Shown piece by piece: positions 57-6,731 of a stretch of DNA of 9,756 nucleotides. The notes under the pieces are model-generated. The model worked only from the letters and a program-made list of their open reading frames with translations. It ran no database searches and was not told where the DNA came from. The DNA is from an uncultured Oscillospiraceae bacterium (GTDB taxonomy: Bacteria; Bacillota_A; Clostridia; Oscillospirales; Acutalibacteraceae). The stretch spans positions 1 to 9,756 of the forward strand of contig CAJLZR010000022.1 in the NCBI GenBank assembly GCA_905211185.1. Reading direction: 5' to 3'. Each line of letters opens with the position of its first letter. The stretch's first letter is position 1. Both the position numbers and the translations under genes were made by a program.

Positions 57-85
57 ATTTTAGCATATAAAAAAAAGTAAGTCAA
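57..85 (-). promoter_or_regulatory. Sigma-A type promoter for the tRNA-Ser gene
   Basis: On the minus strand the -35 box TTGACT (80-85) is separated by exactly 17 bases from the -10 box TAAAAT (57-62). TGC directly precedes the -10 box, making an extended -10. Transcription would start near position 50, about 19 bases before the mature 5' end of the tRNA, leaving a short leader for RNase P to remove. Seen by consensus matching only. Confidence 0.75.
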
Positions 86-170
86 CGGTGTAATTTTTGT
101 TTTTTGAAATTTAAACTTTGGGGACAAATAATGGAGTTTTATGCCAACTTTTCAAATATTTTTTTGGTAA

Positions 171-199
171 TTGAGAAACCTAATGTTATTCAATATAAT
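171..199 (+). promoter_or_regulatory. Sigma-A type promoter for uvrC
   Basis: The -35 box TTGAGA (171-176) and a perfect -10 box TATAAT (194-199) are spaced by 17 bases. The start point would be near 206, about 30 bases before the ATG at 236. This decides the uvrC start: the upstream in-frame ATG at 104 would lie before the promoter, and the SD-like AGGAG at 203-207 would be at or before the RNA 5' end. Confidence 0.75.
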
Positions 200-235
200 G
201 TTAGGAGTACGATTATTCTTATGAGGTTTAAAGAA

Positions 236-2083
236 ATGAAAAAATATACAAATTTGAAGAATGAAGTTCGCAAATTACCGAGTAATCCCGGTGTATACCT
301 TATGAAAAGTAAAGAAAATGAAATAATATATATAGGTAAAGCGAAAAATTTGAAAAATAGAGTTTCCTCATATTTTTTATCAAATTCCGGACATAGCGAT
401 AAGGTCAAAAAAATGGTTAGTAACGTTTATACTTTTGACTATATAATAACCGATAGCGAATTCGAGGCTCTTGTTTTGGAATGCAGCCTTATAAAAAAGC
501 ATCAGCCAAAGTATAATATACTTTTAAAAGATGATAAAGGGTATAGCTATATTAAAATTACCAATGAAAAGTGGCCGAGAATTCTTCATGTGAAGCAAAA
601 ATTAAACGATGGAGCCTTTTATATTGGGCCATATACCAATTCTTTTTCTGTGAAAAATACAGTTGAAGAAATTGTAAATATATTTAAAATTCCAACGTGC
701 AACAGAGATTTTTCTAAGTTTTATAAGCGCGCGTGTTTAAATTATTATATAAAAAAATGTTCAGCCCCGTGTATAAGAGCCATAACAAATGATAAGTACA
801 TGCAAAATATTGATGAAGCAAAGAAGTTTATAAAGCATGGTAGCAAAGATACTGTAAAGTACCTAAATGAAAAAATGAAACTTGCTTCGGAAAATTTAAA
901 TTTTGAATATGCCGCGGAACTACGAGATAGAATAAAAGCAATAGCAAACATAAAGGAACGTCAAAAAGTGGTTTCCTATAAAACGAAGGATTTAGACGTA
1001 ATAGCCTGTGTTTATGACGAAAAAAATATTTCTTTTGAAGTTTTTAGATTTAGCAAAGGAGATTTATATGACAGCCAAAATTTTATAGTTGATTACTCAG
1101 ATGATATTTCTGAGGTAAGGTCTGAATTTTTAAGTCAGTACTATAGCATTTCTGATCGCATTCCAAAAAATATATTTATTGATGGCGAAGTAAATTCACG
1201 TGATGTAGTAAAAGAGTTTTTGGAAAACAAAAGGGGGTCAAAAGTAAATATAAGCAGTCCCAAAATAGGGGATGGCTTGCTACTTTTGGAAATGTGCAAA
1301 AATAACGCCAACGAAGCGCTACTTAGAAACAAGGAAAATAAAAACTTTTACGAAGATATTTTGGAAAGTATAAAAAATGTGTTATTACTTAAAAATGTTC
1401 CGGAGTATATAGAAGCTTACGATATTTCGAATTTAAAAGGTACGGATAATGTTGGCTGTATGGTTGTGTTTAAGGACGGTAAACCATTTAAATCGGCATA
1501 TAGAAAATTCAAAATTAAAGATGTTTCCGGTCAAGATGATTATGGCTCAATGAAAGAAATGCTTTCAAGAAGATTTGATGAATATTTAAAAAGTGAAAAT
1601 AGTTCGGAAAACACTTTTTTCAATATGCCGGATTTAATTTTAATAGATGGTGGTATGGCACATACCGCTGCGGCAAAAGAAGTTATAAGCAGTAAAAACT
1701 TAAAAATTCCTATTTTTGGTATGGTAAAAGACGGAAAACACCGTACAAGAGCGATCACAACAGAGGGCGAAGAAATAGAAATAAAAAATAATAGTCGTGT
1801 GTTTTCGTTTATTACATCTGTTCAAGATGAAGTCCATAGATTTACAATAGGATATCATAAAAAACTCAGAAACCAAAGAATTAAAAAATCAGAGCTTACA
1901 AAAATTGAGGGCATAGGGGATGTAAGAGCAAAAAAATTGCTTAAAGTTTTTGGTTCGGTAAAAAGAATTGCAGACGCATCTTCTAAAGAGCTTGCTTTGG
2001 TTGACGGAATGAACGAACTTTCCGCAAAATCAGTTTATGATTATTTTCACGGTGATAAAGATAATTACGAATCAGAAATTTAA
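236..2083 (+). CDS. uvrC: UvrABC system protein C (excinuclease subunit C)
   Basis: UvrC makes both incisions, 3' and then 5' of a lesion, in nucleotide excision repair after UvrA/UvrB damage recognition. The protein from ATG 236 has 615 residues, normal for the family. Domains in order are: an N-terminal GIY-YIG nuclease (GVY at 19-21, YIG at 32-34, Arg42, acidic EALVLE near 77-82); four cysteines C155, C167, C175 and C179; a UVR domain that contacts UvrB at about 205-240; an RNase H-like nuclease with Asp396 (EAYDISNLKG), Asp471 (LILIDGG) and His534 (SVQDEVHRF); and helix-hairpin-helix repeats at about 557-600. The frame is open from 104, but the promoter at 171-199 and the GAGG at 223-226, nine bases before ATG 236, fix the start. 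ATG 221 is a weaker alternative. The stop overlaps that of the convergent rluD-type gene. Confidence 0.97.
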   Translation: MKKYTNLKNEVRKLPSNPGVYLMKSKENEIIYIGKAKNLKNRVSSYFLSNSGHSDKVKKMVSNVYTFDYIITDSEFEALVLECSLIKKHQPKYNILLKDDKGYSYIKITNEKWPRILHVKQKLNDGAFYIGPYTNSFSVKNTVEEIVNIFKIPTCNRDFSKFYKRACLNYYIKKCSAPCIRAITNDKYMQNIDEAKKFIKHGSKDTVKYLNEKMKLASENLNFEYAAELRDRIKAIANIKERQKVVSYKTKDLDVIACVYDEKNISFEVFRFSKGDLYDSQNFIVDYSDDISEVRSEFLSQYYSISDRIPKNIFIDGEVNSRDVVKEFLENKRGSKVNISSPKIGDGLLLLEMCKNNANEALLRNKENKNFYEDILESIKNVLLLKNVPEYIEAYDISNLKGTDNVGCMVVFKDGKPFKSAYRKFKIKDVSGQDDYGSMKEMLSRRFDEYLKSENSSENTFFNMPDLILIDGGMAHTAAAKEVISSKNLKIPIFGMVKDGKHRTRAITTEGEEIEIKNNSRVFSFITSVQDEVHRFTIGYHKKLRNQRIKKSELTKIEGIGDVRAKKLLKVFGSVKRIADASSKELALVDGMNELSAKSVYDYFHGDKDNYESEI

Positions 2084-3003
2084 TTTGAAATATTTTCTAA
2101 AACTTTTTGGAAGTATGTTGGTAAGTCGCTTGTAAATTTCAAATACTTTTTTGTGGAGGGGTGTATAAAACCTATTTTGCGCGCATGTAAGCACTGCCCT
2201 TTTAAAAATGATTTAAACGGGTTGTTTTTAGGATTTGCATAAACCTCATCGCCAACTATGGGATGACCTATATAAGATAAATGCACTCTTATTTGGTGCG
2301 TTCTGCCTGTTTCAAGTTTAAGTTTTAAATGCGTGTAATTGCCGTATCTTTTTAAAACTTCATAATGAGTAACTGCGGGTTTACCGCTGCCGATTACAAC
2401 TGCCATTTTTTTGCGGTCTGATTTATGTCTTCCTATATTTCCTTTAATTGTTCCCGTATCGTTTTTTATATTCTCATATACCACAGCTTCATATTCTCTT
2501 GTGAAACTGTGATTTTTTATTTGTTCAGATAAAAACTGATGAGAGGTATCATTTTTCGCAACTATTAAAAGTCCGCTTGTGTCTTTATCTATTCTGTGTA
2601 CTATACCCGGTCTTAAAAATCCGTTTATTCCAGAAAGCGAATCCTTGCAGTGATATAAAAGCGCATTTACGAGCGTTCCCGTATAATTTCCTGCCGCCGG
2701 GTGCACTACCATGTTTTTGGGCTTATTAACTACCAGTAAATCACTATCTTCATAAATAATATTTAGATCTATCTTTTCGGGCAAAACGTCAATCGGTTTA
2801 GGATCCGGTATGAGCACTTTTATTTGGTCGCCCGGCATTACTTTATACTTTTTGTTTGTTTTACTGCCATTTATTAAAACTTTTTCTGTATCTATTAATT
2901 TTTGTATGTATGAACGTGATATTTCGCCAAGCTCCGAAAATAAAAATTTATCGAGTCGCTCGCCTTCTTGATCTTGCTGGGTTTGTATATCAATTTCTTG
3001 CAA
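2080..3003 (-). CDS. rluD: RluA/RluD-family 23S rRNA pseudouridine synthase
   Basis: This enzyme isomerises uridine to pseudouridine in RNA, for RluD in helix 69 of 23S rRNA. The protein has 307 residues. An N-terminal S4 RNA-binding domain (about 14-70, starting GERLDKFL) is followed by the catalytic domain, with the family signature HRIDKDTSG at 136-144 and the catalytic aspartate at Asp139. The later LETGRTHQIRVHL motif and the HARKIGF segment are also typical. Paralogues such as RluA or YlyB-like enzymes share these motifs, so the exact target uridine is inferred. The start is TTG, four bases after the stop of the radical SAM gene; no ATG lies between it and the S4 domain, and AGGGGTGGG at 3012-3020 could serve as ribosome site. 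Its stop shares a TTAA with the uvrC stop. It is probably last in a three-gene transcript. Confidence 0.93.
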   Translation of the reverse strand: MQEIDIQTQQDQEGERLDKFLFSELGEISRSYIQKLIDTEKVLINGSKTNKKYKVMPGDQIKVLIPDPKPIDVLPEKIDLNIIYEDSDLLVVNKPKNMVVHPAAGNYTGTLVNALLYHCKDSLSGINGFLRPGIVHRIDKDTSGLLIVAKNDTSHQFLSEQIKNHSFTREYEAVVYENIKNDTGTIKGNIGRHKSDRKKMAVVIGSGKPAVTHYEVLKRYGNYTHLKLKLETGRTHQIRVHLSYIGHPIVGDEVYANPKNNPFKSFLKGQCLHARKIGFIHPSTKKYLKFTSDLPTYFQKVLENISN

Positions 3004-3007
3004 AATA

Positions 3008-3703
3008 TTATCCCACCCCTAAATCAATGATATTAAGTAAAATTTCTATTTGAGGGTCATCCTTAATTTTCGGGTATATTTCTTGTATAAACCGATTTAT
3101 AAGCGGCCTGTTTTCTTTAATTTTTTTACTGTTTGGAGAAAATACATTTACCATACACCGCTTAAAATAGTTTTTTGCAATTTTAATATCAGAAACAGCA
3201 TCTTCAAAAGTTTGATTTTCTGCTCCGACCAATAATCCAACGCTCTTAAAGTATTTTGCTATGTCATCGGGAGAGACACTTTCATCTATGCCTTTATTCC
3301 AAGAACTCCGTAGTTTAGGATTAAAAGTTTCAATTCCTACTTTGTAATCTAACTTAACATTTTCAAATTTTTCTGAAAAATTATCTAGTTGGTTTCGGTA
3401 TTGCCAGTGAACCTCGCACCAAACTTCCTTGATTTTTTTTTCTTTGACTTTATCTATGAGCATATTAAGCGTTTGGCTGTCGAGCTCCATAATCGAGCCT
3501 GAATTAGCTACGTCTACTATTCCGAATTCTCCCGTAATATTTTCAATAACTTTGGAATTTATTTCAAAAGGATTTTTGCTTACATCTTCGTAAAAATCGC
3601 AAAAGGCGCACTTTTTCCAAAAACAACCAAGCCCCTGGAGTAAAATAAACTCCCGAGGAAACTTTTTTGTTATTTTTGAGTATCTGATTTCTACAGGTTT
3701 CAT
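3008..3703 (-). CDS. Small radical-SAM-like protein with CX4CX2C motif, function unknown
   Basis: The protein has 231 residues from ATG 3703. Cysteines 27, 32 and 35 (GCFWKKCAFCDF) form a CX4CX2C cluster motif where the canonical radical SAM motif is CX3CX2C. The aromatic residue after the last cysteine pair fits a 4Fe-4S/SAM site. NSGSIMELD near 70-78 and VGIETFN with the following LRSSWNKGID resemble the later strands of Fe-S oxidoreductases of the archaeosine synthase subunit (RaSEA) type. I recall similar short clostridial proteins annotated only as radical SAM. The bacterial queuine lyase QueL is a non-canonical radical SAM enzyme and a possible relative, but I cannot verify this. An in-frame GTG at 3718 overlaps the upstream gene by ten bases. 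I prefer the ATG because the conserved part begins MKPVEIRYSK and it lies five bases after the upstream stop, suggesting translational coupling; no strong SD precedes either start. Confidence 0.75.
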   Translation of the reverse strand: MKPVEIRYSKITKKFPREFILLQGLGCFWKKCAFCDFYEDVSKNPFEINSKVIENITGEFGIVDVANSGSIMELDSQTLNMLIDKVKEKKIKEVWCEVHWQYRNQLDNFSEKFENVKLDYKVGIETFNPKLRSSWNKGIDESVSPDDIAKYFKSVGLLVGAENQTFEDAVSDIKIAKNYFKRCMVNVFSPNSKKIKENRPLINRFIQEIYPKIKDDPQIEILLNIIDLGVG

Positions 3704-3708
3704 AGTGT

Positions 3709-4467
3709 TTATAAACACACTCTTTCAATTGTGGGATGTACTTCACGGCTATCCACAATCTCGCCTCGTAGCTCTACTTCATTAGCACTTCCGATCGGGA
3801 GCTCGAGATTGCATATTCCGTCGCTTAAATACCTATAAAAATTATACAGCTCCATGTATATATCTGCAACCCGGTTTGTTTGCCACAGGTGGTTTGTTGC
3901 TAATTCTTCGTAGCGATTTTGTAAAATTTGTCTGGATGAATCCGATGGTTCCGGAATATAACCGGTTCCATTTTGGAGAAAGTCATATAGGGCGCAGAGG
4001 TTTATTAAAAGGTACTCTTTAAGCACTTTAGCATCGTTTAGGTTTATATAAACGTCGTTGTTAAGAGTTCTTACAAAATCCATATTTAGCCTTTTAGTAT
4101 GGGACTTTAGCATTCCTAGGCCTACCATCATGGGTGAAAGCTTAATATATTTTTGATCTTCTTGATTTTTCTGCGTAGGATAAGAGTTTATTCTTTCTAT
4201 AAAATTTTGTTCCATATTTTTCGCTATATCTTCACGGTTTAGTCCTTGCGATCCTTGTGGACTGGTTAAATATTTATAAATATAATATACAGTTGGAAGC
4301 GCAACCGCCGTAGTACCAATGGTGATTATAGCAGCATTTTCATAGTTGTGGTTATCTTTTTTGTCTTTTGAGTTTTCGTTTGGTTTTTTGGCAGAGGCGA
4401 CCATGACTCCGCTTAGCGCTACCGTTATTGCAAGAATATATACTGTTACTTTTTTAAAAAAATTCAT
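3709..4467 (-). CDS. Exported, membrane-anchored protein of unknown family (paralogue A)
   Basis: I do not recognise this family. The 252-residue protein starts with a signal peptide: basic NFFKK, a hydrophobic stretch to about residue 24, and a possible cleavage after ASA at 24-26. A short charged, Asn/Lys/Asp-rich linker leads to a second hydrophobic segment at about 45-66, then a soluble domain of roughly 180 residues rich in predicted helix. If the signal is cleaved, the protein would be anchored by the second segment with the C-terminal domain outside the cell. Three blocks are shared with 4710-5471: EQNFIERINSYPT (86-98), VYINLNDAKVLKEYLLINLC (139-158) extending to 164, and the segment 186-211 with ELAT and ADIYMELYNFY. 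The start is ATG with AGGAGG at 4481-4486, a somewhat long 13 bases upstream. The promoter is at 4504-4532. It is the first gene of a transcript continuing into the radical SAM and rluD-type genes. Confidence 0.85.
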   Translation of the reverse strand: MNFFKKVTVYILAITVALSGVMVASAKKPNENSKDKKDNHNYENAAIITIGTTAVALPTVYYIYKYLTSPQGSQGLNREDIAKNMEQNFIERINSYPTQKNQEDQKYIKLSPMMVGLGMLKSHTKRLNMDFVRTLNNDVYINLNDAKVLKEYLLINLCALYDFLQNGTGYIPEPSDSSRQILQNRYEELATNHLWQTNRVADIYMELYNFYRYLSDGICNLELPIGSANEVELRGEIVDSREVHPTIERVCL

Positions 4468-4503
4468 AGAAAATAATAAACCTCCTAAAGAAATTACATA
4501 TTT

Positions 4504-4532
4504 ATTGTAACATGTTCAAAACATTTTGTCAA
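4504..4532 (-). promoter_or_regulatory. Strong sigma-A promoter for the exported protein / radical SAM / rluD operon
   Basis: On the minus strand a perfect -35 box TTGACA (4527-4532) and a -10 box TACAAT (4504-4509) are 17 bases apart. The RNA would start near 4497, giving a leader of about 30 bases that holds AGGAGG at 4481-4486. The spacer carries a small inverted repeat, ATGTT-TTG-AACAT, which could be an operator or chance in AT-rich DNA. Confidence 0.8.
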
Positions 4533-4604
4533 GTTTACGCCGCAATGGTATTAGCCGAAACTACCTTTTGACTTGCTATAAAAATCTAACTTATAAATCA
4601 AAAA

Positions 4605-4620
4605 ATCCTTTATTAAAGAT
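4605..4620 (-). terminator. Possible weak intrinsic terminator after paralogue B
   Basis: On the minus strand ATCTTT-AATA-AAAGGAT folds into a six-pair stem (one G-T pair) with a four-base loop. It is followed at once by six T residues (forward A run 4600-4605). It lies about 90 bases after the stop of the 4710-5471 gene and before the next promoter at 4504-4532. The stem is AT-rich and short, so efficiency is doubtful. Confidence 0.4.
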
Positions 4621-4621
4621 A

Positions 4622-4649
4622 CTAAAAAATAAATTTTTTATATTTTTAG
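4622..4649. repeat. AT-only inverted repeat between the two paralogues
   Basis: CTAAAAA (4622-4628) pairs with TTTTTAG (4643-4649), and a few more A/T pairs inside continue the stem after one bulged base. Together with the adjacent hairpin at 4605-4620 it could form a two-way termination zone. Composition alone makes such repeats likely in this stretch, so the significance is modest. Confidence 0.35.
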
Positions 4650-4688
4650 ATTTTTCCTTTTAATAGATCCTCCCCAATAGTATTTACA

Positions 4689-4704
4689 CATGCTTTGAAG
4701 CACG
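4689..4704 (-). repeat. Small hairpin just after the stop of paralogue B
   Basis: On the minus strand CGTGCT-TCAA-AGCATG forms a six-pair stem (one G-T pair) with a tetraloop, beginning six bases after the TAA of the 4710-5471 gene. No T run follows, so it is not a classical terminator. It may protect the RNA 3' end or be incidental. Confidence 0.35.
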
Positions 4705-4709
4705 AGCTA

Positions 4710-5471
4710 TTATATTCGGCACCCCGCAAATGCGCTTTCTATGGTTGCTTCATTGGCAGTGCTGTCCGGGTCGTTAAGATCCAGTATTTCGTTTTCCAAA
4801 ACAGTATAAAAATTAAATAGTTCCATATAAATATCTGCGATTTCATTAGATTCCCACGCTTTGCTTGTTGCGAGTTCTTGATAGTGGTTATCTAAATAAG
4901 TAAAAATGTCGGGTGTTCTACTCGGCGATAGCGGTTCACCGCTGCTACTGTGAAGTATGTCATATAAAGCACATAAATTTGTGAGCATACATTCTTTTAA
5001 TGCGTTAGCTTCTGTCAAGTTTACATAAACACCGAGTTTAAGACTTTCTGAAAAGCTTGGTGGGATTCTTTTAACAGGGGATATTTCGGACATTTTTTTG
5101 CAAATACCTTTAGGCGATAAACTAATATATTTTTTATTTTCCAAACTTTTTTCCGTAGGATACGAATTTAACCTTTCTATAAAGCGTTGTTCTATGATAT
5201 GGGCCATGTTTAGTGGGGTTAACGGATAAGCCGCATCTGTGGATGACTCCGGATTTTTGGTTGTGGTGGGGCTTTTATGGTGTGAGCGCCAAAATTTATG
5301 TATAAATGGTGATGCGCCTAATGCGGTGCCTACGAAAATTGTTATGGCGGTTAAATGGTTGGATTTCTTTTTTTTCTTTGTTTTCGAAGGTGATGCCAAA
5401 ACCGTCATGGTTCCACTAAAAGCGAGTACTGCTGCTAAAAAAGTGGATATTGATTTTTTTAAAAAATTCAT
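4710..5471 (-). CDS. Exported, membrane-anchored protein of unknown family (paralogue B)
   Basis: Not a family I recognise, but clearly homologous to 3709-4467. The 253-residue protein has the same plan: signal peptide MNFLKK plus a hydrophobic core ending near LAS at 26-28, a very basic linker (KTKKKKK, 30-36), a second hydrophobic segment at about 40-60, a Ser/Thr/Pro-rich spacer (67-87), and a helical C-terminal domain. Shared blocks are EQRFIERLNSYPT (94-106), VYVNLTEANALKECMLTNLC (149-168) and on to 173, and 197-222 with QELAT and ADIYMELFNFY. The start is ATG 5471. The open frame runs back to a TTG at 5534, but that lies inside the -35 box, and an intermediate ATG at 5507 lies in the -10 box; the start also matches paralogue A's N-terminus. 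GGGGTGG about ten bases upstream is a weak SD. It has its own promoter and is probably monocistronic. Confidence 0.85.
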   Translation of the reverse strand: MNFLKKSISTFLAAVLAFSGTMTVLASPSKTKKKKKSNHLTAITIFVGTALGASPFIHKFWRSHHKSPTTTKNPESSTDAAYPLTPLNMAHIIEQRFIERLNSYPTEKSLENKKYISLSPKGICKKMSEISPVKRIPPSFSESLKLGVYVNLTEANALKECMLTNLCALYDILHSSSGEPLSPSRTPDIFTYLDNHYQELATSKAWESNEIADIYMELFNFYTVLENEILDLNDPDSTANEATIESAFAGCRI

Positions 5472-5505
5472 ATTGAAGCCACCCCATGTTAAATAATATA
5501 TACTC

Positions 5506-5534
5506 ATTATAGATACTACGAAATATTTGTTCAA
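5506..5534 (-). promoter_or_regulatory. Sigma-A promoter for paralogue B
   Basis: On the minus strand TTGAAC (5529-5534) and a perfect TATAAT (5506-5511) are 17 bases apart. The RNA would begin near 5499, about 28 bases before ATG 5471, almost the same leader length as for paralogue A. It shows that the longer open frame starting at 5534 is not the gene start. Confidence 0.75.
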
Positions 5535-5642
5535 TGTAGAGTTTTATTTATATTAATTGTTACAAAATCACTAAATATATAATTAGCCAAATTTATAGTT
5601 TGAAAAAATTATTTATTAAAAATAAAAAAATTCAATAAATGC

Positions 5643-5671
5643 TTGTAAAACATCGCACAAGGTATTAATAT
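5643..5671 (+). promoter_or_regulatory. Likely promoter for the small membrane protein and lipoprotein genes
   Basis: TTGTAA (5643-5648) and TAATAT (5666-5671) are spaced by 17 bases, giving an RNA start near 5678 and a leader of about 80 bases. An inverted repeat CTTGT (5642-5646) / ACAAG (5657-5661) lies over the -35 box and spacer and might be an operator. A weaker alternative is TTGTTA (5557-5562) with TATAAT (5578-5583), but its 15-base spacing is short. Confidence 0.5.
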
Positions 5672-5759
5672 GTTACACATGATAGTTAAAAATTATTAAA
5701 ATATATATCCTGCGACAAGTTTTTTTGTTTTTATAACATAAGTAAAGGAGAATTTATTT

Positions 5760-6173
5760 ATGGAAGAAAAAAATAATTTTTTAAAGAGCATTCAGGATGA
5801 TACTTCTCAGTTTAGTAAAGAGGAAATCGATGACGGCAGAGTGATGGGTGTTATATCGTATCTTGTTCCGTTTGTTCCATATTATGCAAAAAAGCATAAT
5901 AAATTTGTAAGATATCACGCAAAGCAGGGCATGAATTTAATGATTGTATATTTTATGTACGTTTTCGTGAAAATTGCTACCAGTTTTATAAAAGTGAGAA
6001 GAACCATTTATTTTGGACGAGTTGAGTACTGGACTTCGCCTTGGTGGATTGATTATCCCCTTAAAGTTATTTTGCTTTGTATACTGGCTTTGGTAATTTG
6101 GGGGATAGTAGATGTTTGTAATGGTAAGGCAAGAAAATTTCCGATTTTGGATAAAATTAGAATTATAAAATGA
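5760..6173 (+). CDS. DUF4870/Tic20-like small membrane protein
   Basis: The protein has 137 residues. An acidic, soluble N-terminus (1-27) is followed by GVISYLVPFVPYY (30-42) and then FVRYHAKQGMNL (49-60), the pattern of DUF4870/Tic20-like proteins in which a hydrophobic turn precedes an F-V-R-x-H-A-x-Q-G motif. Membrane segments are seen at about 58-77 and 101-120, and the tail is basic. The role of this family in bacteria is not established; no catalytic residues are apparent. The ATG has a good AAAGGAG (5744-5750) nine bases upstream. A lipoprotein gene follows after 32 bases, and both precede the terminator at 6641-6670, so they are probably co-transcribed. The family call rests on motif recall. 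Confidence 0.8.
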   Translation: MEEKNNFLKSIQDDTSQFSKEEIDDGRVMGVISYLVPFVPYYAKKHNKFVRYHAKQGMNLMIVYFMYVFVKIATSFIKVRRTIYFGRVEYWTSPWWIDYPLKVILLCILALVIWGIVDVCNGKARKFPILDKIRIIK

Positions 6174-6205
6174 GTGTACATATTTTTTTAAAGTAGGTAA
6201 TGCTT

Positions 6206-6616
6206 ATGAAAAAGAATAATTTGTTTTTGATTCTCTTATTTATACTTTTTGGGTTTTTGGTAGGCTGTTCAAATATGCAAAATAGCTCCGAATCTATCGG
6301 TTCGGAAGGTTCTGTGCTTGATAAGGTTGTCTTTGAAAAAAATCGTGAAGATTGCAGCGAAGTTATGGCTATATATTTTAAAGGCGACAATATAACAAAA
6401 GTGGAAACCAAGGAAACATATACAGATAAAGATGCGCTTACAAAAGCTTACAGTACGTATTCAGAATCTACGGACTATATTAATTTGAGAACCAGCGGAC
6501 TTGATATAGGATATGAATATTCAAGCTCCCGCATATATAATTCTTTTGATGGAATTAGGGGCAAAGATAAGATAATAGATGAATTAGAAAAAAATAGAGG
6601 ATATGCTGTTAGATAA
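6206..6616 (+). CDS. Small lipoprotein, possibly DUF1307/YehR-like
   Basis: The protein has 136 residues from ATG 6206. MKKNN plus a hydrophobic core ends in a lipobox LVGC, with the lipidated cysteine at 21, so the mature protein should be tethered to the outer face of the membrane. It is followed by a Ser/Asn-rich linker and a domain of about 100 residues. The segment around YFKGDNITKVETKETYTD and a helix at the C-terminal end (KDKIIDELEKNRGY) recall the DUF1307/YehR lipoprotein layout, but the match is weak and I would not rely on it. An ATG six bases earlier (6200) is in frame, but AGG at 6195-6197 is only two bases from it and eight from 6206, so the later start is preferred. No function can be given. 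Confidence 0.75.
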   Translation: MKKNNLFLILLFILFGFLVGCSNMQNSSESIGSEGSVLDKVVFEKNREDCSEVMAIYFKGDNITKVETKETYTDKDALTKAYSTYSESTDYINLRTSGLDIGYEYSSSRIYNSFDGIRGKDKIIDELEKNRGYAVR

Positions 6617-6640
6617 AAAGATTAGAAAACTGATTTTATG

Positions 6641-6670
6641 AGTCGGCAATTGTTAGGAGCCGACTTTTTT
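6641..6670 (+). terminator. Strong intrinsic terminator after the lipoprotein gene
   Basis: AGTCGGC (6641-6647) pairs perfectly with GCCGACT (6659-6665) around an 11-base loop. The T run 6665-6670 continues into further T-rich sequence. It begins 24 bases after the lipoprotein stop and separates that unit from fumC. Confidence 0.9.
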
Positions 6671-6697
6671 GTTTTTGTTTTAATAATAGTGTAGAAT
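6669..6697 (+). promoter_or_regulatory. Probable promoter for the fumC operon
   Basis: TTGTTT (6669-6674) and TAGAAT (6692-6697) have 17-base spacing, giving a start near 6704 and a short leader to ATG 6732. A second reading, TTGTTT (6675-6680) with TATAAA (6697-6702) and 16-base spacing, overlaps it. Both -35 boxes fall in the T-rich end of the upstream terminator and are poor beyond TTG. Confidence 0.5.
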
Positions 6698-6731
6698 ATA
6701 AAGGTAAGAAAATTAGTTATCGGGAGAGCAT

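Follow-up and report, generated by a model that had tools for sequence, protein, structure and literature searches.

Within the 9,756-nucleotide stretch of DNA analysed here (hereafter the window), two paralogous genes follow one another in the same orientation (minus strand). Their products, A and B, are rather likely to be effector-like proteins that leave the cell through Sec and are directed at a host, the bacterium being a clostridial parasite of gut protists with a reduced genome and an intracellular life. According to the mechanism that we propose, the signal peptide would export both proteins through Sec into the vacuole or the cytoplasm of the host, the weak second hydrophobic segment would let the chain pass the bacterial membrane and would associate with the host (vacuole) membrane around the bacterium, and the helical domain would then bind a host protein. 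A and B would bring an orphan folded domain to a lineage for which Sec has been proposed as the export route of eukaryote-like proteins (PMC10579323).

The tandem pair of 252 and 253 residues announced in a preliminary description of this DNA is borne out (Table 1). Both ORFs are present, with an upstream TTG as alternative start of B (274-aa ORF), and their full-length BLASTP alignment yields 40% identity and 54% positives over 258 columns (E 1e-51). The local alignment score of the C-terminal parts reaches 339, far above 500 shuffles (mean 30.9, sd 4.9, maximum 53), and that of the N-terminal parts 88 (500 shuffles: mean 24.5, maximum 45). The longest direct repeat, a 73-base copy at 78%, lies within A and B and represents this same paralogy. 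The three conserved blocks of the preliminary description were also recovered: among seven sequences (A, B and five database relatives), 67 columns are invariant, all within A82-A241, in a set where N-terminal columns could not be listed since one relative, P0006, lacks the N-terminus. Likewise, the linker was said to diverge, and pN is indeed 0.50 in the linker (A 28-75) versus 0.24 (A 76-113) and 0.27 (139-211) in the conserved blocks. The data support an old duplication of A and B that has evolved mostly under purifying selection (overall dN ~0.52 and dS ~1.59, obtained with our own NG86 script and with synonymous sites near saturation). The selection claimed earlier is not uniform, however, as pN about equals pS in the stretch 114-138 (0.53 versus 0.54) and exceeds it in the tail 212-252 (0.47 versus 0.38, 31 codons). 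Regarding expression, a strong promoter-like site lies 37 bases upstream of A and is the best of the 20 such sites found in the AT-rich region 2900-6700, where 16.1 are expected by chance; that of B, 35 bases upstream, is weaker. No RNA feature reached the gathering score.

Table 1. Features of the window, contents of the corresponding gene slot in relatives, and clade proteins sharing the N-terminal layout of A and B.
Feature	Position	Strand	Description
RluD-type pseudouridine synthase	2080-3003	minus	used for placement
Radical-SAM-like protein	3008-3703	minus	~231 aa, directly downstream of A
Protein A	3709-4467	minus	252 aa ORF
Sigma-70-like promoter of A	4504-4532	minus	TTGACA-17-TACAAT, TG before second hexamer, 11/12
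Protein B	4710-5471	minus	253 aa ORF, paralogue of A
Sigma-70-like promoter of B	5506-5534	minus	TTGAAC-17-TATAAT, 10/12
Layout of A	residues ~1-26, ~27-44, ~45-63, ~76-236		signal peptide, polar linker, marginal hydrophobic segment, helical domain
Layout of B	marginal segment ~40-58, helical domain ~85-245		signal peptide, Lys-rich linker, marginal hydrophobic segment, Ser/Thr/Pro linker, helical domain
Slot in G004, G005			signal-peptide UCH protein
Slot in G011			signal-peptide GNAT, Ser/Thr kinase behind
Slot in G008			Ser/Thr kinase without signal peptide
Slot in G006 (by eye), G007		opposite	unrecognised signal-peptide-like proteins
Slot in G001, G002, G003			short conserved membrane protein
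Slot in G010			385-aa protein
RabGAP-TBC protein (G004)	L172:11606-12775		signal-peptide-like start, two-segment layout, E 1.1e-6, above curated cut-off
AAA-domain protein	L162:13146-15509		two-segment layout
Alpha/beta hydrolase-domain protein	L153:6605-7729		two-segment layout
Leucine-rich-repeat-like protein	L170 (= L081)		two-segment layout, repeat-like region just under cut-off

The C-terminal domain had been called helical and of unrecognised family, and both statements hold. No above-cut-off match to the A/B family was found in Pfam, NCBIfam, PHROGs (best match at E 0.13), PADLOC or PDB sequences, and neither protein gave a UCH (PF00443) match, even with E values up to 1 admitted. A match of B to YaaC (E 0.0037, 17.2 bits), which A lacks, fell below the cut-off of 27 and was rejected. 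Structure prediction yielded a helical C-terminal domain for B (pLDDT 82.9, pTM 0.81), and the order of structural elements is the same in A and B. Neither a confident match to a known domain nor a disordered C-terminal part, which the preliminary description had named as arguments against itself, was thus obtained. Foldseek and VIA-align searches with both models returned no clear PDB match and nothing above common helical arrangements, which is no proof of a new fold, and the B domain found nothing in a viral structure library at E 0.001. BAG domains recur among the best fold rows for B, tied with ferritins, CorA and designed bundles. Since no catalytic signature was seen (zero invariant His and one invariant Cys in the seven sequences), binding would be likelier than catalysis as the putative function of this domain, in which no host-like homology was recognised.

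Six relatives were found among 5.8 billion proteins, all of them A- or B-like and one an A/B recombinant, and the C-terminal domain had no match in any of 12 clade genomes. The expanded exported family that had been anticipated is thus not supported by these searches, which yielded an A-type, a B-type and a single recombinant. The database gives two of the relatives, P0004 and P0003, on contigs of 272 kb and 34 kb. Scanning genome contigs with A gave 40 pattern stretches and scanning viral contigs with the alignment gave 73, none of which was confirmed. The recombinant, P0006, occurs on three contigs; 64 of its residues are identical to B 89-152 and, from position 66, it is A-like with four differences. 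Such a fusion, with B in front and A behind, is the expected product of a deletion joining the two tandem genes. As the longest exact DNA stretch common to A and B is shorter than 13 bases, k-mer assembly would not be expected to create a chimera from these alleles; P0006 itself is known as a protein sequence.

Broader searches returned marginal matches. The full alignment matched 14 of 147 genomes of relatives at E up to 1, the best being an N-terminal match in G005 (9.1e-5). A family-wide search matched 15 of 398 genomes at E up to 0.1, all matches being short or marginal and the best again N-terminal and in G005 (3.6e-5); five of these 15 touch mainly the domain (E 0.02-0.09). The 398 genomes are a draw from a larger group rather than every clade genome, and the 12 clade genomes were searched separately. 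In G005, an exported 191-aa protein (L081) runs on into a leucine-rich-repeat-like region and not into the A/B domain; a homology of its N-terminus with that of A and B is possible, judging from the signal peptide and the hydrophobic segment. A 251-aa membrane protein of a larger-genome relative (G128, L091:1459-2214; profile positions 77-229) was too weak to be retained (E 0.25) and is possibly a chance match or a very distant relative of A and B.

The genomic context places the window in a lineage of small genomes. Its UvrC is nearest, at 57-66% identity, to that of six MAGs of uncultured Clostridia, among them one titled goat duodenum and one titled goat jejunum. Sequence totals range from 0.8 to 1.3 Mb in these six and in five more relatives. 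With all 11 the window forms a group supported at 98/97 in a 25-row RluD tree, G016 coming next (82/96). An ATP/ADP translocase (PF03219) and a ubiquitin hydrolase (PF00443) were detected in the same 12 of 59 relatives, namely the 11 clade genomes and G016, and neither was found in the other 47 relatives or in 14 control genomes. Two genomes of 1.0 Mb (G030) and 1.1 Mb (G033) lack both markers, so that a small genome alone is not a mark of the clade. From the markers and the RluD tree, we infer that the window belongs to the "small genome clade", a group of Acutalibacteraceae that Takahashi and others reported as parasites inside gut protists (PMC10579323), and its source bacterium is probably such a parasite. 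According to that report, clade members were seen inside protist cells, with a host membrane around two of three; ubiquitinyl hydrolases and signal peptides are mentioned for the clade, at least 20 of its 42 eukaryote-like proteins carrying a signal peptide (PMC10579323).

Some of these genomes show peculiarities. The sole translocase match of G005 is divergent (G005:C36:47698-48858, E 9.2e-15, profile positions 19-456), and G004, a near relative of G005, also has a strong match (E 2.3e-140); the lack of a strong translocase in G005 may reflect an incomplete MAG. Ras-type GTPases were considered as a further clade marker and rejected, since 57 of the 59 genomes match because housekeeping GTPases match too; the informative matches are the strong ones, which are mostly in G016. 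This 1.3-Mb genome has 34 Ras-family matches (e.g., L195), down to E 1.1e-44 and many in frames of 200-300 aa, an abundance recalling the Rab-rich Improbicoccus genome reported in PMC10579323.

Directly downstream of the pair, the start of the radical-SAM-like gene (position 3703, set by eye from relatives) lies 5 bases past the stop codon of A. Its product falls below the Pfam Radical_SAM cut-off and contains a cysteine cluster whose spacing, read directly off the sequence, is CX4CX2C. This gene has matches in all 11 nearest genomes (a partial one in G009) and is followed by RluD in the ten relatives whose surroundings were viewed. By contrast with these conserved core genes, the slot occupied by A and B is variable: in four of the ten relatives it holds a UCH, GNAT or kinase protein, three of them with a signal peptide (Table 1), and the 385-aa protein of G010 is presumably a tRNA-modification enzyme. 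Protein kinase domains are not a eukaryotic speciality, being present in ordinary bacteria too, and the independent fillings are fewer than the loci, as G004/G005 and G008/G011 are close pairs. As a plain tally of ten loci, the slot contents are suggestive of a host-directed role, and such a variable slot is a place to seek further effectors of uncultured gut symbionts. Among individual loci, the gene immediately upstream of the radical-SAM-like one encodes a UCH/USP-type deubiquitinase with a signal peptide at L106:4304-5488 and L107:4498-5406, that of L106 with a tandem KKDSSTDPIIL-type repeat between its signal peptide and its domain. In G007, a 263-aa protein with a signal-peptide-like start (L144:2954-3745) matches OGFr_N just above the cut-off (E 8e-5).

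The N-termini of A and B are central to where their domains would reside. Both proteins begin with a signal-peptide-like sequence, as described earlier, here according to a home-made rule and not SignalP; for B, the rule sets cleavage after residue 17, a position at ~26 being equally good by eye. The second hydrophobic anchor of the preliminary description exists in both proteins as a segment but is marginal (Kyte-Doolittle 19-residue mean of 1.58 in A and 1.46 in B). Standard topology rules would place a domain inside the bacterium when it comes after a cleaved signal peptide and a single spanning segment. Given this rule and the weakness of the second segment, the surface "stalk" suggested earlier is not established, while the host-facing role suggested along with it is supported by the clade and by the gene slot. 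The deubiquitinases of the clade, which have the UCH domain that A and B lack, are here informative. Two N-terminal hydrophobic stretches with a polar linker precede the functional domain in 5 of their 17 frames by rule (L116, L119, L120, L125, L128) and in 7 when two found by eye (L121, L124) are added, the remaining 10 having a signal peptide alone (2), a single later stretch (2) or neither (6, two of them fragments). As bacteria lack ubiquitin, the substrate of deubiquitinases, the presence of the same layout on these enzymes argues against a cytoplasmic location of the A/B domain in the bacterium; for the same reason we take the second segment as too weak to stop Sec. A deubiquitinase would have little use in the bacterial cytoplasm, so that the shared layout opens the way to testing it as a module for delivery or anchoring.

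Across the clade, this layout was counted in 15 of 904 ORFs (68 loci), whereas four relatives with larger genomes had it in 2 of 583 ORFs (36 loci; p 0.023), a p value that is optimistic since the rule was tightened and loci were added after a first count, in which a looser rule had shown no difference (16/640 versus 5/280). Among exported-like ORFs, the counts are 15 of 185 and 2 of 89 (p 0.065). On visual inspection, nine or ten clade ORFs look genuine and about five look false, a penicillin-binding protein being one of the latter; neither of the two controls looks genuine. The excess over larger-genome relatives is thus weak. It is conceivable, albeit doubtful, that a modular leader (signal peptide, polar linker and marginal segment) carries unrelated host-directed domains via Sec into a host-derived membrane; with the same reserve, its candidate cargo might comprise deubiquitinase, Rab-GAP, leucine-rich repeat, AAA and orphan helical domains, the latter being those of A and B. 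If this were true, it would represent a Sec-based Gram-positive counterpart of the chlamydial Inc strategy.

Other explanations for A and B have to be weighed against export toward the host. Signal peptides alone are no proof of host targeting, and both proteins might serve the envelope or the spore of this particular lineage, being exported without having a host as their target. The short membrane protein that fills the slot in three of the ten relatives is presumably SpoIIIA-like. Endospores have moreover been seen in two clade members (PMC10579323). Housekeeping genes of this kind should nevertheless be conserved in the clade, whereas none of its 12 genomes matches the A/B domain and four of the ten slots hold UCH, GNAT or kinase proteins; we consequently hold an envelope or spore role to be unlikely. 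The topology rule would be obeyed literally if A and B were type I membrane proteins with the helical domain in the bacterial cytoplasm, acting for instance with the radical-SAM-like or the RluD protein, and the 5 bases between A and the next gene suggest co-transcription. Such an arrangement is harder to reconcile with a second segment as marginal as that of A and B (1.58 and 1.46), with the same layout on part of the clade deubiquitinases, which need ubiquitin, and with the radical-SAM-like gene being found in 11 of 11 genomes devoid of the A/B domain, and it appears distinctly improbable. An origin from a phage, a plasmid or another mobile element, as toxin, immunity or defence proteins, would fit the narrow distribution, the orphan sequence and the changing content of the slot. 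Neither A nor the alignment found a match in phage, plasmid and viral collections, the PHROGs and PADLOC searches brought nothing beyond the E 0.13 match, and a scan of ten window proteins revealed no recognisable gene of a mobile element, which leaves very little probability for this origin.

To our knowledge, little has been established about the way in which Gram-positive endosymbionts that have no known injection machine bring proteins to a eukaryotic host, and the preferred reading of A and B as host-directed exported proteins invites comparison with several systems. In phytoplasma effectors of the SAP family, the signal peptide is the sole hydrophobic segment, unlike in A and B, and phytoplasmas differ from the bacterium encoding A and B in being wall-less. 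The Sec-dependent effectors of phytoplasmas (PMC12108763) are nonetheless like A and B, as read here, in being small proteins exported by Sec from an intracellular bacterium with no dedicated injector. Chlamydial Inc proteins (PMC3656976; PMC3290821; PMC3048545) would share with A and B the principle of a hydrophobic stretch in the host vacuole membrane and a domain facing the host cytosol; they differ in their type III secretion and in their bilobed hydrophobic domain, which is absent in A and B, where one signal-peptide-like stretch is accompanied by a separate marginal segment (1.46-1.58). The closest comparison is with the secreted proteins of the small genome clade itself (Candidatus Improbicoccus and relatives, PMC10579323): the RluD tree and the markers assign A and B to the same clade, both have a Sec signal peptide by rule, and their slot is one that some relatives fill with signal-peptide enzymes. 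They differ from the eukaryote-like proteins of this clade in having no recognisable eukaryote-like domain and an orphan C-terminal domain. As a kind, A and B are candidate secreted effectors, such as have already been proposed for the clade (PMC10579323), while as proteins they form an orphan family in the searches made. The main-text sections of PMC10579323 make no mention of the A/B pair, of the slot or of the two-segment layout, and no other literature on host-directed proteins of the clade was found among the titles and abstracts listed.

Finally, other small proteins were observed in the window and in its relatives. Within the window, positions 6200-6616 encode a 138-aa lipoprotein-like ORF (LVGC by eye) with DUF4870 and fumarase as neighbours, for which Pfam offered no match within an E value of 1. 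Beside uvrC, clade genomes encode small proteins with double-glycine-type leaders (VSGG, VVGG) at L001:8993-9313, L003:9517-9864 and L003:11880-12191, and a double-glycine-type stretch is also present near the start of the UCH frame L121.
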